The notes beneath the pieces were generated by a model that saw only the letters and a program-made list of their open reading frames with translations, did not search any database and was not told where the DNA came from. DNA of 64,000 bases, from assembly GCF_003846135.1 (NCBI RefSeq), contig NZ_RHHM01000001.1:1-64000 (forward strand), read 5' to 3'. A program made the translations under genes and the position numbers. This DNA is from Erwinia psidii. GTDB lineage: Bacteria > Pseudomonadota > Gammaproteobacteria > Enterobacterales > Enterobacteriaceae. Below, piece after piece: positions 18,776 to 42,463 of the stretch (positions are counted from its first letter, which is position 1; each line of letters starts with the position of its first letter).

Positions 18776-24320
<5,545 letters not shown>

Positions 24321-24327
<7 letters not shown>

Positions 24328-24932
24328 CAGAACAACAGCTGGCCCGGCTCGACTGGGTAAAAACCGACGGTATGATGCCAGCCATCGTACAACATGCCAT
24401 TTCCGGTGAAGTACTGATGCACGGCTATATGAACCAGCAGGCGCTGAGCAGAACGCTGGAAAGCGGTCTGGTCACATTCTGGTCGCGCACCAAACAGCGC
24501 CTGTGGACCAAGGGTGAGACCTCTGAAAATGTCCTGAAGGTAGTCAGCATTACCCCGGACTGCGATAACGACACGCTGCTGGTGCTGGCGGATCCGGTTG
24601 GCCCGACCTGTCATCTGGGTACCTCCAGCTGTTTTTCCCCAGCCGCTTCCGACTGGACCTTTTTGTATCAGCTTGAGCAACTGCTGGCAGAACGGAAACA
24701 CGCCGATCCGAAAAGTTCGTACACCGCCAGCCTGTATGCCAGCGGCACCAAACGGATTGCGCAAAAGGTCGGTGAAGAAGGCGTGGAAACCGCGCTGGCC
24801 GCTACCGTCAACGATCGCGCTGAGCTGACCAACGAAGCCTCCGATCTGCTCTACCATCTGCTGGTACTGCTGCAGGATCAGGATCTGAACCTGAGCACCA
24901 TCATTGATAACCTGCGTCAGCGGCACAAATAA
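24321..24932 (+). CDS. hisI: Bifunctional phosphoribosyl-AMP cyclohydrolase / phosphoribosyl-ATP pyrophosphatase
   Basis: The 203-residue HisIE fusion performs steps two and three. The N-terminal cyclohydrolase carries [12 protein letters not shown] and [12 protein letters not shown] with [12 protein letters not shown] cysteines for zinc; the C-terminal MazG-like pyrophosphatase has [12 protein letters not shown] and [17 protein letters not shown]. It is the last his gene and is followed by a terminator. No wzz or ugd follows, unlike E. coli. Confidence 0.97.
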
Positions 24933-24958
24933 AGGTCGCACCGCGAATGACGCACACA

Positions 24959-24980
24959 AGGCCGGTGATCCCGGCCTTTT
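24959..24980 (+). terminator. his operon terminator
   Basis: AGGCCGG (24959-24965) pairs with CCGGCCT (24971-24977) around TGATC, followed by TTTTG. It lies 27 bases after the hisI stop. Confidence 0.85.
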
Positions 24981-24999
24981 TGCCTTTGGGAGGTTCCAT

Positions 25000-25476
25000 A
25001 TGCACACCTTTGAGAAACTGACGGCCCTGCTCGACAGCCATCACGCCCGTTATACGCTTCTGGAACATCACCCCACGGGAAAATGTGAGGAGGTGGCGGC
25101 CATTCGCGGCACATCTGTTGGCCAGGGCGCAAAAGCGCTGGTATGTCATGTTAAGGGAAACGGGATAAAACAGTATGTACTGGCGGTGCTGCCAGCCGAC
25201 CAACAGGCCGATTTGAGTAAGGTGGCCGCCGCCGTCGGGGGTTTACGTGCATCACTTGCCAGCCCGGCGGAGGTGGATCGTCTGACCGGCTGCGTGTTCG
25301 GTGCCATCCCCCCGTTCAGCTTTCATCAGGAACTGCGGGTGGTGGTTGATCCCACGCTGTGTCAGCGTAACCGTGAGATTGCGTTTAACGCCGGTCTGCT
25401 GGAAAAGTCGGTGTTACTCGACGTGCAGGACTATGAGCGAATTTGTACATTTATACAGGTGAATATTCTGAAATAG
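25000..25476 (+). CDS. YbaK/ProX-like aminoacyl-tRNA deacylase domain protein
   Basis: The 158-residue protein belongs to the YbaK/EbsC family of editing domains that hydrolyse mischarged tRNA. It begins HTFEKLTALLDSHHARYTLLEHHPTGKCEEVAAIRG and contains GQGAKALVCHV (family lysine) and GCVFGAIPPFSF (the G-x-x-P loop). GGGAGG lies just upstream of the chosen ATG; an earlier in-frame start overlaps hisI's terminator and is unlikely. It is a stand-alone gene between the his terminator and a transport gene. The tRNA specificity is unknown. Confidence 0.85.
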   Translation: MHTFEKLTALLDSHHARYTLLEHHPTGKCEEVAAIRGTSVGQGAKALVCHVKGNGIKQYVLAVLPADQQADLSKVAAAVGGLRASLASPAEVDRLTGCVFGAIPPFSFHQELRVVVDPTLCQRNREIAFNAGLLEKSVLLDVQDYERICTFIQVNILK

Positions 25477-25532
25477 TCATTCACAGGCCGGGGAGGAAAG
25501 GTTAATCTGTCAACTTGTGTAAAGCTACTGAG

Positions 25533-26342
25533 ATGAAAAGCATTATGGCAAAAATAACGCTCTCCACCTGTTTGCGGCAGGCCGCTGCACTTGCCCTGCT
25601 TACCGCCTGTGCCTTTGCTACCCAGGCTAAAATTGCGCAGGTTCGCTTTGCCGTTGACCCGACCTATCCCCCTTTTGAATCAAAAACGCCTCAGGGCAAG
25701 CTGGTCGGTTTTGATATCGATCTCGGCAACGCGCTTTGTGCGCAAATGCAGGCGAAGTGTGTCTGGGTCGAAAGCCAGTTTGACGGCATGATCCCGGCAC
25801 TGAAAGCGCGTAAGTTTGATGCCATTCTCTCTGATATGGGTATCACCGAAGAGCGCCTGAAGCAGATTGACTTTACCGTGCCGCTCTACGATACCAAAAC
25901 CCAGCTGATTGCAAGGAAAGGTGCTGGCCTGTTGCCCACGGCAGATTCGTTGAAAGGGAAAAACGTTGGCGTGGAACAGGGCACCGTTCAGGAACGTTAT
26001 GCCCGCGCCAAATGGCAGCCGCATGGCGTGAATGTGGTGCCCTATGGCGATCAGGCACAGGTTGAAAGTGACCTGGTTTCCGGGCGTCTTGATGCGGTAT
26101 TCACCGACGCCGCTCAGGCCGCGATGGGCTTTTTGAAACATCCGCAAGGCAAAGACTTTGAACTGGCCGGTCCCACCGTTGAGGACCCGATCATCGGCCC
26201 TGGCACCGCTATTGGCCTGCGTAAGGGCGATGCAGAACTGAAAACCGCGCTGGATAACGCTTTTGCTGAAATTCGCCGGAACGGCACCTTTGATCGCTTG
26301 CAGAAAAAATATTTTGCCAGCGATATCTCCATCAAACAGTAA
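25533..26342 (+). CDS. Periplasmic amino-acid-binding protein (ABC uptake)
   Basis: A SBP family 3 protein close to lysine/arginine/ornithine-binding proteins. A signal peptide (hydrophobic AAALALLTACAFATQA, probable cut before KIAQV) is followed by VRFAVDPTYPPFESKTPQGKLVGFDIDLGNALCAQM, the family signature, then FDGMIPALKARKFDAILSDM and a C-terminal IRRNGTFDRLQKKYF. About 263-270 residues. The start is uncertain among 25515 (TTG), 25533 and 25545; GGAGGAAAGG at 25491-25500 is nearest to the TTG. No permease or ATPase gene is adjacent. Confidence 0.88.
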   Translation: MKSIMAKITLSTCLRQAAALALLTACAFATQAKIAQVRFAVDPTYPPFESKTPQGKLVGFDIDLGNALCAQMQAKCVWVESQFDGMIPALKARKFDAILSDMGITEERLKQIDFTVPLYDTKTQLIARKGAGLLPTADSLKGKNVGVEQGTVQERYARAKWQPHGVNVVPYGDQAQVESDLVSGRLDAVFTDAAQAAMGFLKHPQGKDFELAGPTVEDPIIGPGTAIGLRKGDAELKTALDNAFAEIRRNGTFDRLQKKYFASDISIKQ

Positions 26343-26399
26343 TGCCACAGCCGTGCCCACGGGTACGGCGTTCTCTCGCCGCAGGTAAACTATCTGATT

Positions 26400-27515
26400 A
26401 TGCAACAACGCCACCATCCCCTGCTCAGTGCCTCACTGGGAACACAGCGTGAAATCATCAGCTATCATTTTGGTCAACCGTCAGTACGGCAGGTCTATAT
26501 TCAGGCGGCGCTGCATGGTGATGAACTGCCCGGCGTGGCCGTTGCCTGGTATCTGAAGAAAAAATTCCTCGCGCTGGAAAATGCCGATCGGCTGAATGCT
26601 CAGATTACGCTGGTGCCGGTGGCTAATCCGTTGGCGCTGGGACAACACTGGCATGGTAGCCATCTTGGCCGGTTTGATACCGCTTCTGGCCAGGATTTTA
26701 ACCGCCAGTTCCCGGCTCTCGGTCCGGCACTGGCGACTGCGCTCCCTGAGGTGCTGACCGACGAAGTTGAACACAACCGCCAGTGCATCCGTGATGCCAT
26801 CAACCACTATTTCACCACGCACAAAGCTCTCACCGAGCTGGAATCGCAGCGCCATACGCTGATGCGGATGGCCTGTCAGGCCGATCTGATGATCGATCTG
26901 CACTGTGACTGGGAAGCGATCCCCCATCTCTACACCACGCCACAGGCCTGGCGTGATATCGAACCGCTGGCACGCTACCTGGGCAGCGAAGTACAGCTTA
27001 TCGCTGAGGTATCAGGCGGTGATCCGTTTGATGAAGCCTGCTGTGAACCCTGGCAGTACCTGCTACGCACGCTGGGTGAGCGTTTTCCGCTGCCACAGGG
27101 GTTAAAACCGGTAACGCTGGAACTGCGTGGCGTGCGTGATGTCAGCCATTCACAGGCGGAAAGGGATGCAGAAGCGATTATCAGGGGTCTGATGCATGGG
27201 GGGTATATCAGTGGCGATGCCAGCGCATTACCCGCGCTGGCCGGTCCGGCAGTGCCGCTGGCAGCCTGCGAGTATCTCTCTGCACCGCACTCCGGTGTGG
27301 TTATGCACCGTCGGGAAACGGGGGAATGGATTAAACCGGGTGAGGTGGTCGCTGAGATCCTTGATCCGCTTACCGACCGACTGACGCCGCTGACAGCAAA
27401 GCATGGCGGGTTGTTGTATGCCCGCCACTGGGCGCGTTTTGCCACGGCCGGGATGTTGATAACCCGACTGGCAGGCCGTGAAGCGATCCGTGAAGGGAAT
27501 TTACTGGTGCCGTGA
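26400..27515 (+). CDS. Succinylglutamate desuccinylase/aspartoacylase family zinc hydrolase
   Basis: The 371-residue protein has the AstE/AspA zinc site: QAALHGDELPG (His and Glu ligands), DFNRQFP (Asn-Arg substrate binding), MIDLHCDW (second His) and VTLELRG (catalytic Glu region). A C-terminal beta domain (HSGVVMHRRETGEWIKPGEVVAEILDPL) is like those of M14-type deacylases such as DoeB. It hydrolyses an N-acyl amino acid or related amide; the substrate is unknown. It follows the binding protein by 57 bases, so the two may serve one amino-acid derivative (inference). No strong ribosome-binding site is seen. Confidence 0.85.
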   Translation: MQQRHHPLLSASLGTQREIISYHFGQPSVRQVYIQAALHGDELPGVAVAWYLKKKFLALENADRLNAQITLVPVANPLALGQHWHGSHLGRFDTASGQDFNRQFPALGPALATALPEVLTDEVEHNRQCIRDAINHYFTTHKALTELESQRHTLMRMACQADLMIDLHCDWEAIPHLYTTPQAWRDIEPLARYLGSEVQLIAEVSGGDPFDEACCEPWQYLLRTLGERFPLPQGLKPVTLELRGVRDVSHSQAERDAEAIIRGLMHGGYISGDASALPALAGPAVPLAACEYLSAPHSGVVMHRRETGEWIKPGEVVAEILDPLTDRLTPLTAKHGGLLYARHWARFATAGMLITRLAGREAIREGNLLVP

Positions 27516-27608: not shown

Positions 27609-29330
27609 TTAAAAGCCCATCCACACCACGCCAGAACCCTCGGCAGATAACGCGACTTCAACCGGCGCACTGAACTCCAGGGTGACTGAAGCAATATCTT
27701 TCATCGCAATCACATCCCTGCCGGTCAGCAAAATTAAGCCACCTGATGGCTTCAACGTTTTTGAACCGGAAAAATATCGGCTACTGCCATCAACCAGCTT
27801 GATGGTCATCCTGACCTCAGCCGTGTTTTTCCCGGATGAGAATGGTCTGACCATTACCGCTGCGGCAACAAGGTTTTTTCCTGACAGCGCGGCGGGTGGC
27901 GTTTCCTCAAGCGACAGTGAGCTGGTGAGCACTCTGGTGCCATTGGCCCAGGTCGGGGCCGGTTTGAGGAAATTACAGTTACGCTGATACATCCAGCCAA
28001 CAGGATCAACAGGAACGCAAAGCGGTGAAGTGGGCGAGTCTATGGCTTCAGCCATCTTCTGCCACTGGGAGTTATTCAGTGCCGGTGAGCCGGGTTCCCT
28101 GCTGATCTGACCTGCTGAAATGAGCCAGCCTGTGGCCATAAACCATACCAAAAACAGCACCGGGGCAGCGTGCCTGAGATAACGGTTACGCCCGTTACCG
28201 GACAACCGCTCGCTTACTTCAGCCAGCAGACCAGCGACCACCAGCACACAGCCAAAGAATCCAACAATAATATGTCGGTAAACCGGCAGCCCCTGTAGCC
28301 TGGACATATCCCGGTTCCACATGTCACTTAAGGCAAATGCATTAAGAAAGACATTAAAGAACAGCAATGCAAGCCCAACTAAAATCAGCGCCCTTGCCTT
28401 GCCTCTCCAGAACATTATTGCCATAGCACTGAGGATCAGAAACAGTAAGCCAACCAGCATTAACGGGTGGTTTGGCAAATGCGAGCTGTGCAGGATATAG
28501 CCGCCCAGAAAGCCAAAAAAGTACTCAACGGCGGCGATCACTTTAGAAAAAAGCGTAATATCGTTGCTTCTGAAGGGCATGGTTCCGGCGGTCGCACTCA
28601 GCGACATCTGGAAAATCTGTCCCAGACAGAAAACAACGGCCACAACGGTTATCCAGCGGAATCGGCTGCGACTGACCAGTGCGACAAGGAGCATCGCAGG
28701 GAATGCCGATAATACGGCCGGTTTTGAGATGATGAGCACCGGTATAAACCAGCTCCACCACGGCACCTCTTCTGTATCATCAACCAGTGCCAGCGCCGTC
28801 ACAATGGCAATGAAGAAGGCGGAAAAGTAGGTGAAATTGATATAGGTTCTGGTTTCAAAGTCAGCAACCATCAGCACGGTGATGGCAACAAGAAAACGCA
28901 GACCATCACTTCTGATGACTTTTCGGAATGCGGGAAGGCAGAATGAGCCAATCAGCATTCCGGTAAAAATGATGGCGGTTCCGGTGTAAACATAGGGTAC
29001 GGAGGCGGCAGGTATATTGAGCTGATTAACCACCAATCCAATAATGCGCTGCGGCACAGGAATATAGCCGGCGTCCGTGGAAAAGAGCTTGTCCAGCAGT
29101 GACGGTGCACTTGCATTGATAAAATAATTTGTGGCCATTTCTGCCCACATTTCACCCGACAGAACAAATCCCGGCTGCATGGTAAGTTGATAAACCACAT
29201 AAAACAGCACAGCAGCCCAGAAAAGAATAACGGCATGGGTTTTATTTCGCACAGGAACACCGGAATCGGCTACGCTGCTCTCAAAAAACCATTCACGTCG
29301 GGCTTTTAAATACGGCAATATATTCATCAC
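27609..29330 (-). CDS. Polytopic membrane protein, possible GtrC-like glycosyltransferase
   Basis: The 573 residues contain around ten hydrophobic segments up to about residue 415 and a soluble, beta-rich C-terminal part of about 155 residues with GSSRYFSGSKTLKPSGG. The first periplasmic loop region SGEMWAEMATNYFINA precedes SPSLLDKLFSTDAGYIPVPQR, an acidic loop as in GT-C enzymes. I do not recognise a family. It is the last gene of the eight-gene operon, 21 bases after the aldolase, and is a candidate for the final glycan transfer step outside the membrane (inference). Confidence 0.6.
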   Translation of the reverse strand: MMNILPYLKARREWFFESSVADSGVPVRNKTHAVILFWAAVLFYVVYQLTMQPGFVLSGEMWAEMATNYFINASAPSLLDKLFSTDAGYIPVPQRIIGLVVNQLNIPAASVPYVYTGTAIIFTGMLIGSFCLPAFRKVIRSDGLRFLVAITVLMVADFETRTYINFTYFSAFFIAIVTALALVDDTEEVPWWSWFIPVLIISKPAVLSAFPAMLLVALVSRSRFRWITVVAVVFCLGQIFQMSLSATAGTMPFRSNDITLFSKVIAAVEYFFGFLGGYILHSSHLPNHPLMLVGLLFLILSAMAIMFWRGKARALILVGLALLFFNVFLNAFALSDMWNRDMSRLQGLPVYRHIIVGFFGCVLVVAGLLAEVSERLSGNGRNRYLRHAAPVLFLVWFMATGWLISAGQISREPGSPALNNSQWQKMAEAIDSPTSPLCVPVDPVGWMYQRNCNFLKPAPTWANGTRVLTSSLSLEETPPAALSGKNLVAAAVMVRPFSSGKNTAEVRMTIKLVDGSSRYFSGSKTLKPSGGLILLTGRDVIAMKDIASVTLEFSAPVEVALSAEGSGVVWMGF

Positions 29331-29351
29331 AACAGCTCTTCAGTATGTGGA

Positions 29352-30380
29352 TTAAGATTTCACCGAAAGACTCATCCGGTATTGTTCCGCATCCCAGTTC
29401 AGTAACTCTGCAATTTGCTCGCCGGAAAGGGTTCTCAGTTTTTCGTCTGGTTTTTGGCGCACCAGCACATCAAAATAGCAACGCAGCTGAAGCTGTTTTG
29501 CCAGACTGAAAGCGGGATGAACAAAGACACCCTGGTCACGAATAAAAACCAGCTCAGGAAGCGGTTCTGACGCGGCAAAATCGTTGAGCGCTGCCCAGGA
29601 TGCAAAGACGAACGGTTTGGGGCCAAGAAAGACGACGTGATCGGGATAAAGCGCCCAGTCTGCACTCAAGCGGTTGACCAGGGCCGGATCGCGGGCCAGT
29701 CGGTGCACATCGGCATCCGCCAGCGGGATATAGTCGCCGTGGGCCGTTTCCGGTAGCGCGGCCACATCAGGCGTAACGGCTGCCGCCATCGGCGTTGTCT
29801 TCATGGTCTCAATCAGGATGGTGAGCAGATGATCAACCTGTTCAATCTGCTCCGCGCCGATCACCACGCCGTGGTTTTTCAGGAAAATAATGCTGGCGGA
29901 AGGCGCGTTCGCCACCCCGTCATGAATAGCGCGGGCAAGCTCCGCGCCGGGCTTGAAGTAGTCAACCACCACCACCGGCTTAACTTCTTCCGGCAACGCG
30001 ATAGCGCTGATGTCACAGCGTTCACGCACCAGATTCGCCAGCAGTTCAATAACATGCAGGTGGACCACAATCCTGTGCGGCATAAGGGCATGCATCAGGG
30101 TTTCAATGGAAGGTCTTAAGGTCGAATCACCCAGCACCTTTGGCGAAACGGCGAAATTACCGGCGGCAATTTCACTTCTGACGTGAGCGAGATCGACCGG
30201 AATAAAGACAGCCTCCTCCTCAGCGCGGGCAAGCCATGTACCGGAGGCTTTCACCCAGAGTACCTCCCCTTCTTTCCAGGAGACGTTGCCGCCTGCTCCC
30301 TGAACCAAAAGAGGATCTTTACCCAGACGGGCACAACAGGCTGTTACCTGGCTGGCGGTCATGTTACAGGGCTGATTCAT
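29352..30380 (-). CDS. Class II aldolase/adducin family protein
   Basis: The 342 residues match fuculose/rhamnulose-phosphate aldolases: QGAGGNVSWKEGEVLWVKASGTWL at the N-terminus (phosphate-binding region) and zinc ligands in IVVHLHVIE (H-x-H) and FLKNHGVVIG (third His). The family cleaves or forms C-C bonds with DHAP or related ketone phosphates, or epimerises ribulose phosphates. The C-terminal 120 residues are extra. Its start overlaps the HAD gene by four bases, so a phosphorylated intermediate shared with that phosphatase is likely. Confidence 0.85.
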   Translation of the reverse strand: MNQPCNMTASQVTACCARLGKDPLLVQGAGGNVSWKEGEVLWVKASGTWLARAEEEAVFIPVDLAHVRSEIAAGNFAVSPKVLGDSTLRPSIETLMHALMPHRIVVHLHVIELLANLVRERCDISAIALPEEVKPVVVVDYFKPGAELARAIHDGVANAPSASIIFLKNHGVVIGAEQIEQVDHLLTILIETMKTTPMAAAVTPDVAALPETAHGDYIPLADADVHRLARDPALVNRLSADWALYPDHVVFLGPKPFVFASWAALNDFAASEPLPELVFIRDQGVFVHPAFSLAKQLQLRCYFDVLVRQKPDEKLRTLSGEQIAELLNWDAEQYRMSLSVKS

Positions 30381-31126
30381 CGCTGAACTCCCAGTTTGGC
30401 AATCAGTTTTTGTAATGCGCTGAAGTCGTTAAATGTTGCATCCGGCGTATTCATCCCGGTGCCTTCCTCGACGCCGACATGCACTTTTTGCAGCGTCACC
30501 GCATTAATCTTCTCACGCGCTCCAAGGATGTCATTGACCGGGTTATCGCCAATCATCCAGATGCAGTTACCTTTCGGCCGCATTTTCTCCAGTGCAATCT
30601 GGAAAGGGGCTTCATGGGGCTTATCAAAACCGGCTTCTTCACTGGTAACAATGTAGTCAAAGTAGTGATCGAGTCCGAAGTAAACCACCTTCCTGAACTG
30701 GATCTGTGCCGTCAGATCGGTAACGATCGCCGTCGGTACCCCCAGCAGACGAAGGTCATCCAGCAGGTCCTTGACGCCATCAAACAGCACCGCATTGCTT
30801 AAAAAGGTTCGCCAGTATGTTTGTTCGAAATCCAGCGCCAGCAGCACCTGCGATCCCAGCCCCATGATTTCCAGCATACGCTGAAGATAAAGCAACCGGC
30901 TGTGGGAAGAGGCCGTGTGTTTCAGGCGATTTTTAACCTGATCTCTGGCCTGTTTAAATGCCCGGTCAAACTCATCAGGTGAGATGGAAAACATATTGAC
31001 CACTTTGTCCCGTACCGCCGCCTGGGCCGCTGCGTGCACCGGATCGTAAGGATAGAGCGTATTGTCGGTATCAAATAAAATCGCATCGGGTAGACGGGTG
31101 AAACACTCTGGATTATTTATTTTCAT
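30377..31126 (-). CDS. HAD-superfamily phosphatase
   Basis: The 249-residue enzyme has all four HAD motifs: ILFDTDNTLYP (motif I, both aspartates), AIVTDLT (motif II Thr), GFDKP (motif III Lys) and IWMIGDNPVNDILGA (motif IV). The cap of subfamily I lies between motif I and II. It would dephosphorylate a small phosphometabolite. It overlaps the upstream kinase-fusion gene and the downstream aldolase gene by four bases each. Confidence 0.85.
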   Translation of the reverse strand: MKINNPECFTRLPDAILFDTDNTLYPYDPVHAAAQAAVRDKVVNMFSISPDEFDRAFKQARDQVKNRLKHTASSHSRLLYLQRMLEIMGLGSQVLLALDFEQTYWRTFLSNAVLFDGVKDLLDDLRLLGVPTAIVTDLTAQIQFRKVVYFGLDHYFDYIVTSEEAGFDKPHEAPFQIALEKMRPKGNCIWMIGDNPVNDILGAREKINAVTLQKVHVGVEEGTGMNTPDATFNDFSALQKLIAKLGVQR

Positions 31127-33177
31127 TTTACAAATCGCTTAGTCATCGCCTGGCTGATATGAGAAAGAGTGATTAATTGCATCAGTCCAACCATGCCATC
31201 TTGCCAGGCAGGAGTAATATCTAAAAACTCGATTACGCTCGGACAAAGTATTTTTGCTGCCAGTTCTATATCTGCCGCTGAAGTTTCACCCTCGATGCTG
31301 ATTAGAATTTCAGCGCCATCATCACTGACCACGATATCGACATGTAAACCACAGACTCCCACCAGCACCCTGCTCAATGAAAGTTCATTAAAACCATGTC
31401 GCGTAGTGACAACCAGCTTCAGGCGCAATGGCTGCTTGCCGTCCAGATTCTCCAGCATCCGGGGATGGATCGGCTGTAACGAAAGCGCAAGATCGGCAAA
31501 GCCCAGCTGGGGCCGGATGAAACGCTCGGAATCTGACTCGCGCTTGTTAAACGACGTCAGTACTTTTTCCAGCGTGTGTCCGCGCTCGTGCACATCGCGT
31601 TTAATTTTCAGGTAACGCCGTAGCCCCTCATCGATATTGAGGTAAATTTTCAGGTTGTAGCAGTCCCTGAGGATCGGTAAATAGAGCGCGTGCAAACCGC
31701 TGGCGATGATAATGTCATTACTGGCGATACGGAAGGGCCGGCTCATTTTGCCCGTCTGATGATCGTAATGACGGGAATGAATAGACTTACCATCGGTCAA
31801 CGAGATTAAATCGCTGCAAAAGCCTTCCAGATCGTTAGCCATGGGATTGAGATGTGTCATCACCTGCCACATCGGTTTTTGTCGGTCCCACAGGTGATAA
31901 TCGTCCCCGGACAGTTTAACCACCGAGTGATTGCCAAAAAGCCCGCTTACCGCATCAGAAAGGGTATCTTTACCGGCACCGGAATCTCCGGCAATGCCAA
32001 CCACAAAAGGCCTGCGGCTGAGCCTGAAAAAATCGTTGCGGCTGATCTCTTCACGCCAGATGCGGATAGCCAGCACCACGCCAATGATCATCATTGATGT
32101 ATGCAGCAGTGATACAGCGTGATCGCCAGCAGCGCCGTCGACGTTAAACCGCTGGGCAAGATCTAAAATCTGCCCGTTAGATAACTGGACATTGCTCACC
32201 AACAGGGTGCTGAAGACGTAGATCAGCGAGAATACCGTGATGAAGATACCGGCGAGACGCCCACTTCGCGCCTGGTAAAGCAGCAGGAAAGGCATGCTCC
32301 ACACAAACCAGCCTGGCGAGGCTGGCGTCATCAGCACGATCAGCAAGAATGCCATTCCGGTGATAGTCTGAAACAGATCGAAGTTCAGACGCCTGACGCG
32401 CCATGCGCTGTACATCAGCACAAAATAGATCAGTGGAACGATATAGATGGAAAAATTCTCACCCAGATTCATTGCCACATTGTAGATCTTGCCCATCTCA
32501 GGATTGCCGAACAGCATTTCCAGACCGGCGGAGGAGAAGAGAAAAGGCAGCCCCAGGATCACCGCAGCGGCGGCTAAGCCTGACAAAAATTGCGTAATAA
32601 TCTGCCTTAATGCTTTGTTGTTATACAGATAAATAATAATAAAAGGCAGTGCAACAATCATGCTCAGTTTTGCTGAAATTGCCGCTGCACATAGCACACC
32701 GGCCGTTTTTAACTGCACGCGACGGACAGCAAATATTGACAGTACCAGCAACAATGCAGGAATGAGATCGTTCAGACCCAAAACATAGCTGGCAAGAATC
32801 ACCACCGGAGAGAGCCAGTAAATCACCAGCAGCAACCGTTTCCGGCCAGGCAACAGGCCGTTAAGCACCACCAGCATGCAAAAGTCAGCCACCAGCAACG
32901 TCAGCTCGTAGCCATAATGCAGAGGGGCACCGGCAAGCTTTGCCAGAAGCGTAAGCGGCAGGAATACCAGCCACATCGCGTAGCCATACGGGAAAGCTAA
33001 TGGTACACCACCCGCATGGATCCAGGACGTCCAGGGATCCAGCGTCAGTGAGGACAGACTGTTATCCAGAAAGGGAGCAAACCATTCCGTGACGGCCAAA
33101 GGCGCGATGAAAAAGATCAGCGCGACACGGATAGCAAGCCCGATAAAGAAATAGGGATGCCGGTACAATTTATTCAT
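31123..33177 (-). CDS. Fusion: membrane GT-C-like domain plus uridine-kinase-like domain
   Basis: The 684-residue product joins two parts. Residues 1-390 are highly hydrophobic, with around ten membrane segments and PYFFIGLAIRVALIFF at the start. Residues 394-684 form a P-loop kinase of the uridine kinase/phosphoribulokinase type: GIAGDSGAGKDTLS (Walker A), KLSGDDYHLWDR, a SRHYDHQTGK segment and IIASGLHALYLP. The start at 33177 overlaps the stop of the GDPD-like gene (ATGA); an upstream in-frame ATG is inside that gene and less likely. Kinases of this type are normally separate soluble proteins. Probably it phosphorylates a small sugar, polyol or nucleoside at the membrane and couples it to transfer (inference). 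Confidence 0.8.
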   Translation of the reverse strand: MNKLYRHPYFFIGLAIRVALIFFIAPLAVTEWFAPFLDNSLSSLTLDPWTSWIHAGGVPLAFPYGYAMWLVFLPLTLLAKLAGAPLHYGYELTLLVADFCMLVVLNGLLPGRKRLLLVIYWLSPVVILASYVLGLNDLIPALLLVLSIFAVRRVQLKTAGVLCAAAISAKLSMIVALPFIIIYLYNNKALRQIITQFLSGLAAAAVILGLPFLFSSAGLEMLFGNPEMGKIYNVAMNLGENFSIYIVPLIYFVLMYSAWRVRRLNFDLFQTITGMAFLLIVLMTPASPGWFVWSMPFLLLYQARSGRLAGIFITVFSLIYVFSTLLVSNVQLSNGQILDLAQRFNVDGAAGDHAVSLLHTSMMIIGVVLAIRIWREEISRNDFFRLSRRPFVVGIAGDSGAGKDTLSDAVSGLFGNHSVVKLSGDDYHLWDRQKPMWQVMTHLNPMANDLEGFCSDLISLTDGKSIHSRHYDHQTGKMSRPFRIASNDIIIASGLHALYLPILRDCYNLKIYLNIDEGLRRYLKIKRDVHERGHTLEKVLTSFNKRESDSERFIRPQLGFADLALSLQPIHPRMLENLDGKQPLRLKLVVTTRHGFNELSLSRVLVGVCGLHVDIVVSDDGAEILISIEGETSAADIELAAKILCPSVIEFLDITPAWQDGMVGLMQLITLSHISQAMTKRFVK

Positions 33178-33779
33178 TGAGTGAGTTCCGTTCCTTCCCA
33201 AAGATCGGGGCGTTTTGTGCAAACAGCGTCGTAATGGATATTTCTCGCTTTCATCAGCGCTGCCATCGCAGGTATCTCAACCCCGGCGTCACGACCCTGC
33301 AATTCAGGTGACACAATGCAAAGTTTAAACCCGGCATCTTTCAGACGTCGGGCATCCTCTTCGCTTAATGGAAATTGCGTGAAGCAATCCACCCAAACCC
33401 AGTTCACTTTGCCCGCCAGAGTTAGCGCTGTTTCGACTGATTCAAACTCCGAAACCCGCACAGCACAGCGTGACTCACCAAGATTTGACCACTTCACCAG
33501 AAACGGGAACGACTGATCGAGAAAGAAATAATCGTCAATCCCCTTCTCTGCCATCAGCGCAATCAGGCGGGCTTCAAGGCCTTCTTCTTTCACGTTGAGG
33601 ATCAGTGTCCCATGTTGGTAGGCATCAATCCATTCGTCAAACAGTGCGCCGCTGGCAAAGGGATCGTGACCGATGATCATCTGCTGCCCGTGACTACGAA
33701 TATCAACTTCAACGCCATATTTTCGATCGGTAGAAATCAGTTCACTAATGGTATTACGACGATGAGCAATCAGGTTCAT
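33174..33779 (-). CDS. GDPD-like phosphodiesterase domain protein
   Basis: A 201-residue, minimal glycerophosphodiester phosphodiesterase fold: LIAHRRNTI (catalytic His-Arg), GVEVDIRSHG (E-x-D metal ligands) and MIIGHDPF (second His), then DYFFLDQSF. Typical family members are 240-300 residues, so this one is short but has the active-site residues. No signal peptide is seen, so it should act in the cytoplasm. It overlaps the GT2 and kinase-fusion genes by four bases. In this operon it may act on a phosphodiester-linked intermediate. Confidence 0.75.
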   Translation of the reverse strand: MNLIAHRRNTISELISTDRKYGVEVDIRSHGQQMIIGHDPFASGALFDEWIDAYQHGTLILNVKEEGLEARLIALMAEKGIDDYFFLDQSFPFLVKWSNLGESRCAVRVSEFESVETALTLAGKVNWVWVDCFTQFPLSEEDARRLKDAGFKLCIVSPELQGRDAGVEIPAMAALMKARNIHYDAVCTKRPDLWEGTELTQ

Positions 33780-34474
33780 TTTGCCATGTTCTTTTTTAAT
33801 TGAAGGCTGAAATCGACAGTCCTTCGGATGAATTTTCGCTTCGCCGCCCAGTTAACATTCCAGTGGGAAACACCATGCGCCCGTTCGCCAAATTTGACCG
33901 GGAAACGATATACCTTCATGCCTTGCTGCTGCGCCTGATAATAGGCGAACAAATCAAGTGAAAAGTCATCCGGTGCTGCGCGCCAGGAATCAAAGAAAGC
34001 GCGGGAAAACAGCGTGGGCTGTGCGTTGATGTCCCACATAGGTTTTGCTAACAACAGGGTTTCGAACAGACTCATTCCAACGGTAAACACCACGTCCATC
34101 AATGGCCGACCGTAGCGCTTTCCTTTAACAAAAATAGCATCGCCATGCTTTTCAAACAGGTCAAAACCACGCAACGCATCCTGTGGATCGGTTTGCAGAT
34201 CGGCATGAGTCCAGCCCAACACGGCGCCAGTGGCGGCCTTAAGGCCGCTGACAATGCCAAAACCATATCCCTGGTTGACCTCCACACGGATACTGCGGCA
34301 TCCCGGATACTGTGGTAACAGTGCCTGCAAAACCTGCGGACTGTCGTCGGTGGAGCCGTTATCAACCAAAATCACTTCAACATCAGGCCGGGCGACGACG
34401 TGTTTACAACGCTCAAGCAACAGCGGCAGGTTTGCCGCTTCGTTATAACAGGGAATGACAAGTGAAAATCTCAT
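33776..34474 (-). CDS. GT2 glycosyltransferase, polyprenyl-phosphate type
   Basis: The 232 residues form a GT-A domain with FSLVIPCYNEAANLPLLLER, VDNGSTDDSP, and WTHADLQTDPQDAL (D-x-D region), like dolichyl-phosphate mannosyltransferases. It has no C-terminal membrane pair, unlike GtrB, but lies right after GtrA and overlaps its stop by four bases. It should load a nucleotide-activated sugar on undecaprenyl phosphate. Confidence 0.85.
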   Translation of the reverse strand: MRFSLVIPCYNEAANLPLLLERCKHVVARPDVEVILVDNGSTDDSPQVLQALLPQYPGCRSIRVEVNQGYGFGIVSGLKAATGAVLGWTHADLQTDPQDALRGFDLFEKHGDAIFVKGKRYGRPLMDVVFTVGMSLFETLLLAKPMWDINAQPTLFSRAFFDSWRAAPDDFSLDLFAYYQAQQQGMKVYRFPVKFGERAHGVSHWNVNWAAKRKFIRRTVDFSLQLKKNMAK

Positions 34475-34875
34475 TTCATCTCCACAGGATTATGTATTCT
34501 GAAAACAAAAAGCTTCATCCCCAGGAAATTAAGGCAGGCGGTTAATCCGGTAGCAACCAGAAAAGCCAGCTGAACGGGTGCAAAGGTATTTGCAAACAGT
34601 TTCAACGCCAGTGAATTGCACAACACATTGGTTCCAAGCGTCACGGCATAGAGGAGAATAAAACGCCATGCGCTGCCTGACTGGTGTGGTTTGTGACCGA
34701 ATGTCCAGAAGCGATTGGCGAAATAGGCAAACAGGGTTCCCGTCAGGAACCCCGCTGCTTTCGCTACATTCACCGTGAAAATATCCAGCCCCACCAGCAG
34801 TCGATAACTTGAAAAGTCGACCAGCACGGTCAGACTGCCAACGATCAGGAATATCGCTAACTCTTTTTTTATCAT
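34471..34875 (-). CDS. GtrA-family flippase
   Basis: The 134-residue protein has four membrane helices and the GtrA pattern FLIVGSLTVLVDFSSY, then AAGFLTGTLFAYFANRFWTFG and a C-terminal LGMKLFVFR. GtrA proteins are believed to flip undecaprenyl-phosphate-linked sugars. The start at 34875 overlaps the nucleotidyltransferase stop (ATGA); six further codons upstream are inside that gene. Confidence 0.9.
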   Translation of the reverse strand: MIKKELAIFLIVGSLTVLVDFSSYRLLVGLDIFTVNVAKAAGFLTGTLFAYFANRFWTFGHKPHQSGSAWRFILLYAVTLGTNVLCNSLALKLFANTFAPVQLAFLVATGLTACLNFLGMKLFVFRIHNPVEMK

Positions 34876-36542
34876 GCCTTCGCCTTCAGGCATTCAGGCA
34901 GCGTCTTTTGGTATTTCAACGTCAGCGTGCTGAGCTGGTCAGCAGGAACGCGCCCGTCGAGTTCCAACCGATAGGGATGACCATCCCATTTCGCAAAGCA
35001 GGACTGCCAGTATTCAAATGTGCGCAGATCGTTTGGTGTACCCCAGCACAGGTAACTGTCAACTTCGAAAAGTGCACAGCGCAAACCAAGCGCAATCGCG
35101 TCATCGATCAGTGAATCAATGTAGAATTCACCATTAATACGACCATCACGGGCAATCAGGCGCTCAAGCGCACGCCGGAAATCGTCCGCCTTACGGAAGG
35201 TGAAGGTTCCCAGCACCACAGGATCGGAGGCCGGATTTTCCAGCGGTGTTTTCACTGAAATTGAACGGATGACGCCATTTTCAGCATCGATCCAGCCGAA
35301 CATTTGTGGATGCCGTGCCGCGTTAGGATAGCCCCGCACACCCCAGACAATCACATCTGTCGCAGGGTCGTTCACCAACTGACTGAACGCATCGGCATCA
35401 TAAAGCGCACCGTGATCGCAGGTACCAATGGTAATCGGTCCTGAAACAGGCTTGCCCTCTTGCGCTAACGCATCAAAACCAATCAGCGCACTGCAGGCCT
35501 GGCCCTCGGTCACTTTGTCTATGGTCCTGATAATCGCGTTGGGATAGAGTGCTTTTAGCTCTGCTGCCACGTCCTGATAACCAGCCATATCCGCGCGCAG
35601 CACGAACACATGTTGTTCTGCGGCGGGCAGGTCATGCGCGGCCTGAGCCACCATCGAACGCCCTGAAACAGGGATCAATGGCTTGGTCAGAGTGTAACCC
35701 TCTTTACTGAAACGTTGTCCCAGTCCGGCCATAGGAATGACAATTGCGCCCTGCGGTGCGGGGGGCACACCAGCCGGTTCGATGGCTTTATGGAAGACAT
35801 TTGACCAGACATTGTATTCAGCAACGTCCTCTGGCGTACCCCATTGCATGAAATGCTGAATCGGGTATACCGCCACAGACTGTCCGCTGGCTAAAAGCGG
35901 CCGGTAGGCGAGGCTGACATAATACTCTCCACCGATATTTAAATTCTGTTCCATCATCATGGAAAATGCATCGGACATTACCTTCGCGGAGGCAAAATAA
36001 TAGGTGCCGCTTGATGCATATTCTTCCATGCGATTATCTGTGTAAGGCTGTTTTTCCTGAATGTCGTCCATCCAGCCTGCCGTTTCGCGGATGTAGGCGT
36101 AGTTGGTTTTGCCAAGCGTGTGCGGGTGAAAACCTTTATAAGCTGGCACCGCTCCTGCACAGGCGGTCTCTTTAACAAAACGTTTGAAATGATGCCAGTC
36201 CCAGTAGCAGGTAAAATCGCAATAATTAACCACCACAGGTTCTGACGGGTCAAGCATCGCTTCCACCTGACGCACCGCATGAACAGGGCCAAGTTTATGA
36301 GGCTTAATGCCTACCACGCGTCCTTCAGGGCAATACTGTTTCAGAATCGCTTCCATACGATAATCAGGGTTATCAAGGTGATCCTGATTGCAGATGAATA
36401 TAAAGCTGGATTCGCCGGGAAACATGTCGATGACATGAGCCACAATGGGCTTACCCTCAATTTCGATTAGTGGCTTAGGGACGTTATACCCTACGCGACG
36501 AAAACGCTCGCCAAAACCGGACATTGGAATAACAATCTGCAC
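34872..36542 (-). CDS. Tandem nucleotidyltransferase (two NTP-transferase domains)
   Basis: The 556-residue protein contains two copies of a sugar-nucleotidyltransferase domain: residues 1-260 start QIVIPMSGFGERFRRVGY with PKPLIEIEGKP, and residues 265-540 start AIVIPMAGLGQRFSKEGY with TKPLIPVSGR. Both keep the G-x-G-x-R nucleotide loop and the PKPL/TKPL lysine. Both halves also share the GEYY/GEFY and WGTP motifs. The best start is a GTG at 36542 (GAGG upstream); the frame is open further but the domain begins here. It leads the operon and should activate the product made by the kinase, aldolase and HAD enzymes. The nucleotide is unknown. Confidence 0.8.
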   Translation of the reverse strand: MQIVIPMSGFGERFRRVGYNVPKPLIEIEGKPIVAHVIDMFPGESSFIFICNQDHLDNPDYRMEAILKQYCPEGRVVGIKPHKLGPVHAVRQVEAMLDPSEPVVVNYCDFTCYWDWHHFKRFVKETACAGAVPAYKGFHPHTLGKTNYAYIRETAGWMDDIQEKQPYTDNRMEEYASSGTYYFASAKVMSDAFSMMMEQNLNIGGEYYVSLAYRPLLASGQSVAVYPIQHFMQWGTPEDVAEYNVWSNVFHKAIEPAGVPPAPQGAIVIPMAGLGQRFSKEGYTLTKPLIPVSGRSMVAQAAHDLPAAEQHVFVLRADMAGYQDVAAELKALYPNAIIRTIDKVTEGQACSALIGFDALAQEGKPVSGPITIGTCDHGALYDADAFSQLVNDPATDVIVWGVRGYPNAARHPQMFGWIDAENGVIRSISVKTPLENPASDPVVLGTFTFRKADDFRRALERLIARDGRINGEFYIDSLIDDAIALGLRCALFEVDSYLCWGTPNDLRTFEYWQSCFAKWDGHPYRLELDGRVPADQLSTLTLKYQKTLPECLKAKA

Positions 36543-36891: not shown

Positions 36892-38298
36892 TTATTCCAG
36901 CCATTCGGTATGGAATACACCTTCTTTATCGGTACGTTTATAAGTATGCGCACCGAAATAATCACGCTGAGCCTGGATCAGGTTTGCTGGCAGAACCGCT
37001 GAACGGTAACTGTCATAATAAGCGATAGCGGCAGAGAAAGTTGGCGTTGGAATACCATTCTGTACCCCCCAGGACACAACGTCGCGCAGCGCCTGCTGAT
37101 ATTCGTCAGCGATATTCCTGAAATACGGTGCCAACAACAGATTGGCGATATCTGCATTATCTGCATAGGCGTCGGTAATTTTTTGCAGGAACTGGGCACG
37201 AATAATACAGCCGGCACGGAAGATTTTAGCGATCTCACCGTAATTCAGATCCCAGTTATTCTCGGCAGAAGCCGCCTTTAGCTGTGAGAATCCCTGCGCG
37301 TAGGAGACGATCTTACCCAGGTAAAGCGCACGACGCACTTTCTCAATGAACTCGCCTTTATCACCTGACAACGCCTTCACCTGTGGGCCGCTCAGTACCT
37401 GAGAAGCGGCCACACGCTGGGTTTTCAGCGAGGAAAGATAACGGGCAAACACCGACTCAGTGATCAATGACAGCGGTTCCCCGAGATCGAGTGAACTCTG
37501 ACTGGTCCACTTACCGGTGCCTTTGTTTGCGGCTTCATCCAGAATGACATCCACCAGATATTGGCCGTCTTCATCTTTTTTGACAAAAATATCTTTTGTG
37601 ATGTCAATGAGATAGCTGCTCAGCTCACCTTTATTCCACGCGGTGAAAGTCTTCGCCAGTTCTTCGTTATTCAGGTTCAACGCGTTCTTCAGCAGGGAAT
37701 AGGCTTCAGCGATTAACTGCATATCACCGTATTCGATACCATTATGAACCATCTTCACATAGTGACCAGCGCCGTCCGGGCCAATATAGGTGACACAGGC
37801 TTCACCTTCCGCGCGCGCCGCAATCTTATCAAGGATTGGGGCAACCAGCTCATAGGCTTCTTTCTGCCCACCAGGCATGATGGAAGGCCCTTTTAATGCC
37901 CCTTCTTCACCACCGGAAACGCCGGTGCCAATGAAGTTAAAGCCCTGGTCGGACAATTCACGATTACGACGAATGGTGTCTTTATAGAACGTATTACCGC
38001 CGTCGATCAGAATATCTCCCTTATCAAGATGGGGAGTCAGGGATGCAATGGTTTTGTCAGTCGCTTCACCAGCCTGAACCATCAGCAGGATACGACGCGG
38101 TTTCTCAAGAGAATCAACAAACTCTTCGATGTTGTAGTAAGGTGCCAGCTTTTTGCCCGCATTCCCGGCGATGACTTCATCCGTTTTTTCACGAGAGCGG
38201 TTAAAGATGGAGACGGTGTAACCCCGACTTTCAATGTTAAGAGCCAGGTTACGTCCCATTACTGCCATACCTACAACGCCGATCTGTTGCTTTGACAT
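36892..38298 (-). CDS. gnd: 6-phosphogluconate dehydrogenase (decarboxylating)
   Basis: Gnd is the NADP enzyme of the pentose phosphate pathway. The 468 residues begin [38 protein letters not shown], match the E. coli length, and end in [19 protein letters not shown]. The ATG at 38298 has CAGGAG upstream; an upstream start eight codons earlier is less likely. A hairpin (CGGCGTA 38326-38332 with TACGCCG 38340-38346) is in the 5' leader. gnd next to the O-antigen locus is the normal enterobacterial place. Confidence 0.97.
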
Positions 38299-38483
38299 TA
38301 CATACTCCTGTCTGAAGGGCACTCACGGCGTATGTCAGGTACGCCGCGTAATAAAGAGGAAAACATGTTAACCCAGGATAACCGATCAAAGGTAGTGATT
38401 GGTGCGATTGGTAATCTTTCTTGCAAAATAACAAGTTAGGGAACATTACCCCCTCTAATTACCAGGGTTATCTGTGCCGTTTT

Positions 38484-39248
38484 TTACACTAAATCAGCTT
38501 TACTTAAATTGGTTTTGAAATACAAGGGCAAAATATCTTCCGGCTTACCGTCCATTTTGACCGTACCATGTTCAAGCCAGAGGATCCTTGTACACACCTT
38601 GGCCATCAACTCATAGCTGTGGCTGGCAAGGATCAGAATTTTGGTGGCATTAATGATATTGCTCAGACGGGTTTCTGCTTTTTCTTTAAAACTTTCATCA
38701 CCCACGGATAACCATTCATCCATGAGCAAAATTTCGGGTGTGAAAATAGTTGAAACACTAAATCCCAGTCTCATCTGCATACCTGAAGAGTAGGTTCTGA
38801 CAGGCATATCGATGAAGTCACCTAAATCGGTGAAGTCGATAATTTCATCGATTTTTCCATCAATCTCTTTTTTGCGCAGCCCAAGTAGCGCGCCACGGAT
38901 ATAGATATTTTCTCGTCCGGTAAATTCAGGGTTGATTCCCAATGAAATAGAAATCAGCGATCCAATGTCACCCTCAATATTCACTTCGCCTGTTGTAGGG
39001 TGGTAAACCCGGCTGAACATACGTAACAGCGTGGTTTTTCCGGCGCCGTTATGGCCAATCAGCCCTACACGTTCGCCGTCATGAATTTCAAAATTGAGAT
39101 TATTCAGAGCAGAGACAACCACTTTACCGTTGTTTTCTCCAACCTTTCCACCGGTGGCAAAATTGATAAAATTCTTTTTAATAGACCGTGATGCCGCGTC
39201 AAATATGGGAAAGTCGATCCCGACGTTTTTAAATTTAATAATAGCCAT
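38484..39248 (-). CDS. wzt: O-antigen/polysaccharide export ABC transporter, ATP-binding protein
   Basis: The 254-residue ATPase has Walker A GLIGHNGAGKTTLL, signature YSSGMQMRLGF and Walker B ILLMDEW, with the long N-terminal spacer found in KpsT/Wzt proteins. It has no C-terminal carbohydrate-binding domain, so chain-end recognition as in E. coli O8/O9a Wzt is absent. It is the last gene of the minus-strand O-antigen operon; no clear terminator follows before gnd. A seven-base gap separates it from wzm. Confidence 0.9.
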   Translation of the reverse strand: MAIIKFKNVGIDFPIFDAASRSIKKNFINFATGGKVGENNGKVVVSALNNLNFEIHDGERVGLIGHNGAGKTTLLRMFSRVYHPTTGEVNIEGDIGSLISISLGINPEFTGRENIYIRGALLGLRKKEIDGKIDEIIDFTDLGDFIDMPVRTYSSGMQMRLGFSVSTIFTPEILLMDEWLSVGDESFKEKAETRLSNIINATKILILASHSYELMAKVCTRILWLEHGTVKMDGKPEDILPLYFKTNLSKADLV

Positions 39249-39255
39249 AACAATC

Positions 39256-40056
39256 CTAAACCCAGTAGGGAACGCGATATTTAAACTTACTGGTCATCAA
39301 CGTTGAGAATGCAATACCCACTACAGCCATTATTGCAGTAACCCACCAGCTCGTCGCCGAAGGCATCTCTCCCAACAATGGCGCACGCACCACCTCCATT
39401 AAATGATAAAATGGATTGAAATTAAGCAGCATGGTGCCAATTCTGTGGGAGAGAAGCTTCGGCATCCAGATTACCGGAGTCAGATAAAAAATAACCTGCA
39501 TAACACTCAGAATAATTTGGGTCATATCGCGAAAACGGGCGCAAATCAGAGACATCACCATCAACAGCCAGGAGACATTCAGCGTCAGCAGGATAAATCC
39601 GGGTACAACCAACAGGATATGCCAGTCTACCCCCTTCGATACGGCAAACAACACCAACGGGAATATAACGATGTTGTGCATAAAAATAATGGAATTTTTC
39701 CACACCACCCGCAGAACATGAACATGCAATGGTACTGGCAGCTGTTTGATAATACCTTCAGCAGAGATAAGAGCATCGCAGCCCTCTGTGATACAGCCAG
39801 ACAGAAAACCCCAGATAATCAGACCCAGGGTAAGATAAGGCAGAAAATCGTGTAACGGCGTTTTAAAAAGATTGGCAAAAACCAGCCCCATAGTGGTGAT
39901 CATCACCGCCATACTGATGGTTATCCAGAATGGCCCTAAACGTGAACGTTTATAACGTTGACGAATATCCTGGCTCCCCATTACCCTGACAACATGAAAG
40001 GACCTGATCGTGCTGAAAAGATCGTCAATACCTGGTGAATTTCGAAAGAAAGACAT
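39256..40056 (-). CDS. wzm: O-antigen/polysaccharide export ABC transporter, permease
   Basis: The 266 residues form a six-helix ABC-2 permease of the Wzm/KpsM type: RDIRQRYKRSRLGPFWITIS-like N-terminus (here SQDIRQRYKRSRLGPFWIT) and WDNPFYHL-type end (FNPFYHLMEVVRAPLLGE). With Wzt it moves a completed lipid-linked polymer across the inner membrane. Its start follows the RgpF-like gene stop directly. Confidence 0.92.
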   Translation of the reverse strand: MSFFRNSPGIDDLFSTIRSFHVVRVMGSQDIRQRYKRSRLGPFWITISMAVMITTMGLVFANLFKTPLHDFLPYLTLGLIIWGFLSGCITEGCDALISAEGIIKQLPVPLHVHVLRVVWKNSIIFMHNIVIFPLVLFAVSKGVDWHILLVVPGFILLTLNVSWLLMVMSLICARFRDMTQIILSVMQVIFYLTPVIWMPKLLSHRIGTMLLNFNPFYHLMEVVRAPLLGEMPSATSWWVTAIMAVVGIAFSTLMTSKFKYRVPYWV

Positions 40057-41346: not shown

Positions 41347-41375
41347 TTTTTCACCGTAGTAATGATTTGCATGGT

Positions 41376-42317: not shown

Positions 42318-42463
42318 TTCAGTGCCGCACTATACTGTCATTTGGGTCATGAAAAAGTTTTCAGAAAACGACTCTCAGGACCACAGTCTGATCCATCATA
42401 ATAAAAGTCATTATTAATTGATGATCCAGATAATACTATTACAGGATCATCAATTATTACATC

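Follow-up and report, generated by a model that had tools for sequence, protein, structure and literature searches.

A set of eight genes at positions 27609-36542 of a 64,000-nucleotide stretch of Erwinia psidii DNA (contig NZ_RHHM01000001.1, positions 1 to 64,000; hereafter the window) very probably constitutes a conserved mobile surface-glycosylation cassette. The gene set is conserved and mobile, the motifs of its enzymes are intact, and loss of its kinase motifs is associated with the presence of RuBisCO in the host. The overall reading favored here, that of a cassette of the Gtr kind which brings its own donor-sugar pathway and places a pentulofuranose on a surface polysaccharide, has about an even chance of being correct. 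The cassette provides candidate genes for a whole pentulofuranose route, with ribulose-1,5-bisphosphate (RuBP) as the substrate to test first, and hints that RuBP may serve purposes other than carbon fixation. If this is true, it would represent a transferable surface-sugar module on plasmids and phage-like contigs that may alter recognition by phages and antibodies.

The proposed route consists of eight steps. The kinase domain would convert D-ribulose-5-phosphate (Ru5P) to RuBP, and the HAD phosphatase would then take off the 5-phosphate to give D-ribulose-1-phosphate (Ru1P), leaving O5 free for a furanose ring. The aldolase-family enzyme would act on this ketose-1-phosphate, most simply as a C4 epimerase/aldolase that yields L-xylulose-1-phosphate. 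One nucleotidyltransferase domain would next produce a nucleoside diphosphate (NDP)-1-pentulose, the GDPD-like enzyme would allow O2 to attack the phosphorus, with release of a nucleoside monophosphate and passage of the phosphate to the anomeric C2, and the second nucleotidyltransferase domain would generate an NDP-2-pentulofuranose. Finally, the GT2 and GtrA proteins would load and flip the sugar on polyprenyl phosphate, and the variable GT-C protein, perhaps together with the GT-C-like half of the kinase fusion, would move the pentulofuranose to the surface polysaccharide, here probably an L-rhamnan O-antigen. We infer the first two steps from the enzyme families and from the association of RuBisCO with kinase loss, and the last two from family and context; the stereochemistry of the third step and the whole of steps four to six are hypothetical.

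Gene content and organization of the cassette

All eight genes are encoded on the minus strand. The first encodes a tandem nucleotidyltransferase of 556 amino acids with a GTG start (34872-36542; Pfam NTP_transf_3, 45.5 bits), and is followed by a GtrA/DPMS-type membrane protein (34471-34875; PF04138, 66.8 bits against a cut-off of 26.1), a GT2 enzyme of the polyprenyl-phosphate glycosyltransferase type, presumably similar to GtrB, Dpm1 and ArnC (33776-34474; PF00535, 88 bits), and a candidate GDPD/PLC-like phosphodiesterase (33174-33779), recognized by its conserved residue layout and annotated as PI-PLC/GDPD family in plasmid records. Next come a fusion of a GT-C-like membrane domain, a phosphoribulokinase-like domain and a conserved C-terminal domain (31123-33177; PF00485, 114.5 bits; ALG3, 25.7 bits against a cut-off of 23.6), an HAD phosphatase closest to RuBP 5-phosphatase (30377-31126; NF053830, 170.4 bits over nearly the whole protein), and a class II aldolase/epimerase-family enzyme with an extra C-terminal domain (29352-30380; PF00596, 60.2 bits). 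The last gene encodes a multi-spanning GT-C-like protein (27609-29330; about nine predicted membrane spans), which is a candidate for a variable and possibly acceptor-specific transferase.

Six four-base ATGA overlaps link the seven genes at 29352-36542, and the GT-C-like gene starts 21 bases past the aldolase stop, so that an earlier note on this DNA was right in the coordinates of its eight genes, seven of them joined in this way. The first three overlaps connect the nucleotidyltransferase gene to gtrA (34872-34875), gtrA to the GT2 gene (34471-34474) and the latter to the GDPD-like gene (33776-33779); the other three connect the GDPD-like gene to the kinase fusion (33174-33177), the fusion to the HAD gene (31123-31126) and the HAD gene to the aldolase gene (30377-30380). 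The most likely starts are 34875 for GtrA and 33177 for the kinase fusion (684 amino acids), rather than the upstream in-frame starts in the list of open reading frames (ORFs). Residue numbers for the fusion refer to the 699-amino-acid reading from 33222, in which the GT-C-like domain covers residues 20-390 approximately and the phosphoribulokinase-like domain residues 402-595.

Pfam matches above cut-off were obtained for NTP_transferase, GtrA_DPMS_TM, Glycos_transf_2, PRK, HAD and Aldolase_II. No Pfam match above cut-off was found for the GDPD-like protein, whose gene is present as a single copy in the window's genome, and neither a Pfam nor an NCBIfam family was found for the GT-C-like protein at 27609-29330. 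The polyprenyl acceptor of the GT2 enzyme is suggested by its similarity to the NCBIfam ArnC model (E 1e-12), at 47.7 bits far under the cut-off of 529. Genes on the opposite strand adjoin the cassette on the side away from gnd.

Conservation in other genomes

The core of the cassette occurs together in gamma-, beta- and alphaproteobacteria and in a planctomycete bin. A genome scan with the aldolase yielded 23 loci in named genomes, including Erwinia, Solimicrobium, Nitrosomonas, Pseudomonas, Rugamonas and Acidovorax as well as bins of Methylococcaceae, Legionellaceae, a planctomycete and others; further loci came from searches with other cassette proteins. Forty loci were tabulated, with the window included and a gene scored when one ORF covers at least 60% of it; a partial aldolase standing alone (L041) and a degraded copy (L014) were left out. 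The tandem nucleotidyltransferase, GT2, GDPD-like protein, kinase fusion, HAD phosphatase and aldolase are all present in 34 of these 40 loci, one of which (L038) has its kinase, HAD and aldolase genes in pieces. In the remaining six, a single gene is split (L024, L040), the cassette is truncated at a contig end (L025, L026), or two members are absent over about 20 kb (L032, L065). A GtrA homologue, at the same coverage of at least 60%, accompanies 32 of the 40.

Because many loci were found by way of the aldolase, other baits give a fairer check of co-occurrence. With the kinase fusion as bait ten loci were recovered (L043-L045, L062-L065, L120-L122), all of which possess the GT2, GDPD-like and HAD genes and nine of which possess the nucleotidyltransferase and the aldolase. 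The GDPD-like bait recovered seven of the tabulated loci (L012, L013, L060, L061, L066-L068), and each of them contains the kinase fusion, HAD, aldolase, GT2 and nucleotidyltransferase. Gene order and orientation differ among loci and gene content is constant; co-inheritance of one fixed operon is thus not the whole reason for the co-occurrence. Recurrence of this core in unrelated bacteria puts the arrangement far outside what chance would produce. The earlier note had viewed the genes as a single system that makes, activates, lipid-loads and transfers an unusual small sugar, a view with which the gene content agrees; scattered, unrelated copies as the only form of occurrence were not seen.

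The cassette is rare. Close matches to the GDPD-like protein number four (own genome included) in 295 genomes of the family, with ten at any strength, and full-length kinase fusions number five (own included) in 398 genomes of the phylum, with four more proteins that match it in the kinase domain alone. The class, represented by 369 genomes, gave four close matches (own included) and a fifth, distant one, and only two of 5,426 E. coli genomes contain the cassette. Within the order of the Nitrosomonas host the sole positive among 250 genomes was the query genome itself, and the three positives among 48 genomes of the class of G304 were all previously known. The genome that holds the degraded copy mentioned above, in which several genes are broken up, is small (2.1 Mb) and belongs to the genus of the L012 genome.

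Mobility and comparison with Gtr cassettes

Both E. coli copies are located on plasmids of about 33 kb. In strain ES3 the eight genes are flanked by IS26 on both sides, and in strain S1-CAM-01-A the replicon bearing the cassette is typed IncR; plasmids of Azospirillum and Hirschia also hold copies. A frameshifted AIDA-repeat gene (L070:13045-14308) adjoins the E. coli plasmid cassette inside the IS26 pair; its product may have been an acceptor, or the gene may be a bystander. The cassette is further found on two IMG/VR contigs. In one (L060), where the contig end cuts the nucleotidyltransferase gene, a phage portal gene (E 1e-162) and a terminase gene adjoin it, and in the other (L061) it is accompanied by genes for a CI-like repressor, an Rz-like spanin, an endolysin and a tail fibre. 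An acyltransferase-like membrane protein recognized by eye on the latter contig (L061:14414-15538; no PHROG match) is possibly a second O-antigen modification gene. A collection of 50,697 phage records gave no match for the aldolase or the GDPD-like protein.

The last gene of the cassette is the variable one. Homologues of the GT-C-like protein were found in 12 of the 40 loci; among the other kinase-bearing loci, 25 of 28 carry, within 9 kb, a different ORF for which seven or more spans are predicted, and some of these ORFs are perhaps unrelated. Gtr serotype-conversion cassettes of temperate phages consist of gtrA, gtrB and a variable gtrC, and draw on a host NDP-sugar as donor. The window cassette shares with them a GtrA-family membrane protein (PF04138), a GT2 enzyme, a variable multi-spanning transferase candidate and carriage on phage-like contigs. 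It differs in that, instead of relying on a host NDP-sugar, it adds five enzyme genes for what would be its own donor, encoding the kinase, HAD phosphatase, aldolase, tandem nucleotidyltransferase and GDPD-like protein. By analogy, the combination of a constant, putatively donor-making core and a changing last transferase on phage-like elements resembles Gtr cassettes. The framework of lipid-linked, Gtr-type transfer is known, and the donor pathway appears to be new: neither a characterised pathway for this gene set nor a description of it or of pentulofuranose biosynthesis was found in the open-access literature (subscription papers not covered), in keeping with the earlier note's proposal of an undescribed pathway.

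Proposed nucleotide activation and the GDPD-like protein

Both domains of the tandem nucleotidyltransferase carry the GxGxR, K, D and WGTPxD motifs, the residues of which are kept in nearly all of 37 rows of the alignment. The two domains are only 26.5% identical to each other (E 2e-29), and their both being motif-intact at this divergence suggests two nucleotidyl transfers. In the GDPD-like protein H6, R7, E24, D26, H38, K64 and E65 are invariant across 37 rows, D39 is kept in 35 of them, and the HR...ExD...HD layout of GDPD enzymes is also seen in five distant members that were aligned. The apparent intactness of key motifs in the window's letters extends across the alignments of the nucleotidyltransferase, GDPD-like, HAD and aldolase proteins, in which the conserved residues are kept in all or nearly all rows.

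A more distant group of the GDPD-like protein occurs in a different type of cluster in genomes of the window's family (L015-L018), the L016 member matching the cassette protein at 99.5% in hhalign. BLAST identified two nucleotidyltransferase-like genes each in L016, L017 and L018 and one in L015, as well as wzm and wzt in L015 and L017. Pfam and NCBIfam assigned a WavE-type glycosyltransferase and a sugar-phosphatase-like HAD to L016 and confirmed the HAD of L015, the remaining content of these clusters having been judged by eye. These clusters tie the GDPD-like protein to nucleotidyltransferase chemistry, and its presence beside nucleotidyltransferases in both settings suggests that it more likely acts on a nucleotide intermediate.

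GDPD-type enzymes act through attack of a neighboring hydroxyl on phosphorus. On an NDP-1-ketose this hydroxyl would be the anomeric one, so that the phosphate would arrive at C2 and a glycosyl phosphate would become available to the second nucleotidyltransferase domain. The outcome would be a new form of ketose activation, in which phosphate travels from C5 to C1 by kinase and phosphatase, is built into an NDP-1-ketose, passes by way of a GDPD-type 1,2-cyclic phosphate to C2, and ends in an NDP-2-ketofuranose. This sequence of events is doubtful as a whole; hypothetically, it gives every gene of the cassette a role, and it would extend the same logic of nucleotidyltransferase, GDPD-like protein, nucleotidyltransferase and HAD to L016-L018, the second cluster type perhaps activating another ketose.

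Alternatively, an NDP-1-pentulose of the CDP-glycerol or CDP-6-fructose type might be made and the pentulose-phosphate transferred by phosphodiester linkage, with the GDPD-like enzyme editing or recycling. CDP-6-fructose chemistry provides a precedent, nucleotidyltransferases and a phosphodiesterase-like protein are at hand, and a phosphorylated pentulose is a likely intermediate. However, the GT2 enzyme with GtrA and the multi-spanning GT-C-like proteins point to glycosyl rather than phosphoglycosyl transfer, and two intact nucleotidyltransferase domains would be left unexplained, making this alternative unlikely. The earlier note had taken the GDPD chemistry as a hint of a phosphodiester-linked final group; no such group is needed, as the second cluster type also has the GDPD-like protein in company with nucleotidyltransferases.

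The kinase, the phosphatase and RuBisCO in the host

RuBP and Ru1P are likely intermediates of the pathway. A PDB search with the kinase fusion gave first an entry deposited as uridine kinase (E 2e-37), followed by two deposited as phosphoribulokinase (E 2e-36 and 3e-35). The DDYHxxDR, YxHxTG and RDxxxRG motifs of the kinase domain align with those of solved phosphoribulokinases and are also present in the top match. PF00485 is found in all 25 members of the fusion that were scanned, 21 of which also match ALG3 at an E-value of 0.1 or better. For the HAD phosphatase of the window the best NCBIfam model is NF053830, the haloarchaeal RuBP 5-phosphatase, which is matched by 25 of 25 members; residues D19, D21, T136 and K169 are kept in 39 of 39 rows, and D194 and D199 in 38. 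The kinase, HAD and aldolase all score under the curated cut-offs of the enzymes after which the models are named, so that, as judged from their sequences, they are relatives rather than proven members of these families.

The haloarchaeal RuBP 5-phosphatase removes the C5 phosphate to give Ru1P and is paired with a class II aldolase (PMC9700705). The window cassette likewise places an RuBP 5-phosphatase-like HAD beside a class II aldolase, and would share Ru1P as an intermediate with this non-carboxylating pentose bisphosphate pathway of halophilic archaea. In the archaeal pathway ribose-1,5-bisphosphate isomerase forms the RuBP and Ru1P is degraded (PMC9700705), whereas the phosphoribulokinase-like domain and the nucleotidyltransferases of the cassette suggest biosynthesis.

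Further indication of the kinase substrate comes from its decay in certain hosts. Seven residues of the kinase domain were scored (440, 443, 447, 488, 542, 543 and 547), which we take to be the equivalents of D42, H45, R49, H100, R168, D169 and R173 of the R. sphaeroides phosphoribulokinase. D441, which is changed in L036, L044, L066 and L120, was excluded because the catalytic Asp maps to D440. All seven are kept in 35 of 39 kinase rows, and the losses are confined to L022 (five residues), L023 (seven), L120 (four) and L121 (three); in a wider table of 25 positions L121, L022, L120 and L023 show 4, 9, 9 and 12 changes and all other rows 0-2. RuBisCO was sought in 34 host genomes, and strong matches (445-461 bits) were found only in five hosts of the family Nitrosomonadaceae (L022, L023, L120, L121 and L122), each of which possesses a separate phosphoribulokinase-like gene (230-236 bits). 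Weaker RuBisCO-family matches in Acidovorax (L039, 223 bits) and Spirobacillus (L028, 61 bits, with a stop) were counted as absence; besides the cassette, the former host has no PRK-family match and the latter has two of about 136 bits. Key residues are thus lost in four of five RuBisCO hosts and in none of the 28 remaining hosts that were tested and have a kinase row (Fisher p 1.2e-4). Six of the 39 rows (L025, L043-L045, L060 and L061) fall outside this host test, and all six keep the seven residues.

L022, L023 and L120 form one clade, in which the kinase domain is less similar to that of the window than the membrane domain is, the opposite of every other row. L121 stands apart from this clade in the membrane-domain, GDPD-like and nucleotidyltransferase trees and groups with it weakly (0.54) in the HAD tree; probably, therefore, there have been two independent losses of the kinase. 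The catalytic residues of the HAD, aldolase, nucleotidyltransferase and GDPD-like proteins are kept in the kinase-loss cassettes. The simplest reading is that the Calvin-cycle kinase of the host supplies the same product, RuBP. The cassette kinase shares Ru5P and catalytic motifs with the Calvin-cycle phosphoribulokinase and is apparently replaceable by it in autotrophic hosts; it differs in its fusion to a GT-C-like membrane domain and in a Ser in place of the Walker-B Glu, and unlike in the Calvin-cycle setting, most tested cassette hosts are without a strong RuBisCO match.

Alternatively, the decay in Nitrosomonas relatives could be chance drift of a kinase whose substrate is unrelated to RuBP. 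The events are few, with only two losses that look independent, the five RuBisCO hosts are all members of a single family, and one of these hosts (L122) keeps all seven residues. Yet conserved residues are intact in the neighboring domains and genes of these cassettes, and the 28 tested hosts without strong RuBisCO show no such loss, which renders drift unlikely.

In the kinase fusion, residues 600-690 approximately form a conserved C-terminal domain behind the kinase domain, with the motifs CGLHVD and PxWQDGxxGLMQL. This domain is 68-71% identical to that of the window in L022, L023 and L120 despite the decay of the kinase domain.

The aldolase and the possible identity of the sugar

The aldolase retains E93, H107, H109 and H170, the zinc His residues and the catalytic acid, in 39 of 39 rows. 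Models of the rhamnulose-1-phosphate aldolase/dehydrogenase type are matched below cut-off by 27 of 27 members and lead by best E-value over FucA-type models (matched by 26) and the Ru1P-aldolase model (19). Identity with a plain AraD-type 4-epimerase is not settled: the epimerase model was matched by 6 of 27 members, and the protein keeps the aldolase-type Glu, E93, at a position where the AraD-type epimerase presumably has Asp. C4 epimerisation of D-ribulose gives L-xylulose. Among aldolases of dihydroxyacetone phosphate (DHAP), the stereochemistry of the rhamnulose-1-phosphate type would lead with glycolaldehyde to L-xylulose-1-phosphate.

The aldolase could instead act first, as the earlier note had it, building a ketose phosphate from DHAP and an aldehyde, which the kinase and HAD would adjust before activation and transfer. 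The intact zinc-aldolase residues and the relationship to the DHAP aldolase type are compatible with such an order. It is not supported by the affinities of the kinase to phosphoribulokinase and of the HAD to RuBP 5-phosphatase, which place these two enzymes upstream, on Ru5P and RuBP, as does the loss of kinase motifs in RuBisCO hosts; a start from Ru5P, with the phosphate moved from C5 to C1 before the aldolase, is more likely, and aldol assembly as the first step is improbable. Least probable is that the pentulose is only an intermediate on the way to an aldose or to a two- to three-carbon unit (glycolaldehyde or DHAP): the haloarchaeal counterparts do cleave Ru1P to DHAP and glycolaldehyde (PMC9700705), but the cassette has no gene of a family known for glycolaldehyde use or ketose-to-aldose isomerisation, and its two nucleotidyltransferase domains require a phosphorylated substrate.

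A route from Ru5P by way of RuBP and Ru1P to a pentulofuranose therefore remains the preferred reading, against which several points weigh. The product sugar and the activation steps are themselves inferred. The top PDB match of the kinase is, as noted, a deposited uridine kinase, and plasmid records annotate the protein as either uridine kinase or phosphoribulokinase. The Glu at the Walker-B position, a residue with a role in phosphoribulokinases, is missing from the cassette kinase, being replaced by Ser in 36 of 39 rows and by Asn in three. Scores fall well short of the NCBIfam cut-offs for the kinase (191 bits against 236 for PRK07429), the HAD (170.4 bits against the NF053830 equivalog cut-off of 330) and the aldolase (21 bits against 300 for the Ru1P aldolase model). 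Besides the features of the RuBisCO comparison that speak for drift, its seven residues were picked after the 25-position table had been viewed. Four enterobacterial hosts (G000, G069, G184 and G1024, the window's host among them) have another PRK-family protein of 237-255 bits and an intact cassette kinase; no RuBisCO match was found in these four. Membership of the GDPD-like protein in its putative family is judged by the order of its motifs; hhalign to the GDPD protein of the same genome gave probabilities of 11% and 3%, and the PDB held no relative at E 1, an alignment query returning only chance-level matches (best E 0.69).

Genomic context and O-antigen

The gene next to the cassette, which we take to be gnd (36892-38322, minus strand), shares 96.2% identity with its counterpart next to the cassette of Erwinia mallotivora (L020), whose arrangement is almost the same and likewise includes gnd, wzt and wzm. 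Upstream of the cassette and in the same direction lies an O-antigen-type locus (38484-45909, minus strand) that encodes the permease and ATPase of an ABC-2 exporter (wzt, wzm), the rhamnan-synthesis protein RgpF, a GT2 enzyme and products of rml-type genes, assigned by a Pfam scan of the ORFs except at 42464-43018 and with gene names that are in part our assumption. This is probably an ABC-dependent L-rhamnan O-antigen locus. The wzt/wzm/RgpF region of the window had no match in E. coli, a species whose O97 type bears xylulose.

Pentulofuranose residues are known from a bacterial O-antigen. The available part of a report on Yersinia enterocolitica O:10 describes an L-xylulofuranose side chain on a D-rhamnan O-antigen (PMC11380512), and thus, as proposed for the window, an ABC-exported rhamnan with a pentulofuranose side chain. 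For the 11 genes of the O:10 locus that part of the report names no xylulose-making enzyme (PMC11380512), whereas the window cassette carries candidate donor genes. Pentulofuranose residues also occur in chlorovirus glycans (PMC9614988), and in a 2020 survey of 55 monosaccharide pathways the main text does not contain the words xylulose or ribulose (PMC7725333). A pentulofuranose of the xylulofuranose type as the final residue of the window cassette is plausible, at slightly less than an even chance.

On the other side of the cassette, plus-strand ORFs at 17873-27515 of the window resemble a his operon in their sizes and order when judged by eye. Within the same interval, the his-like run is followed by ORFs resembling a periplasmic amino-acid-binding protein and a succinylglutamate desuccinylase, likewise by eye.

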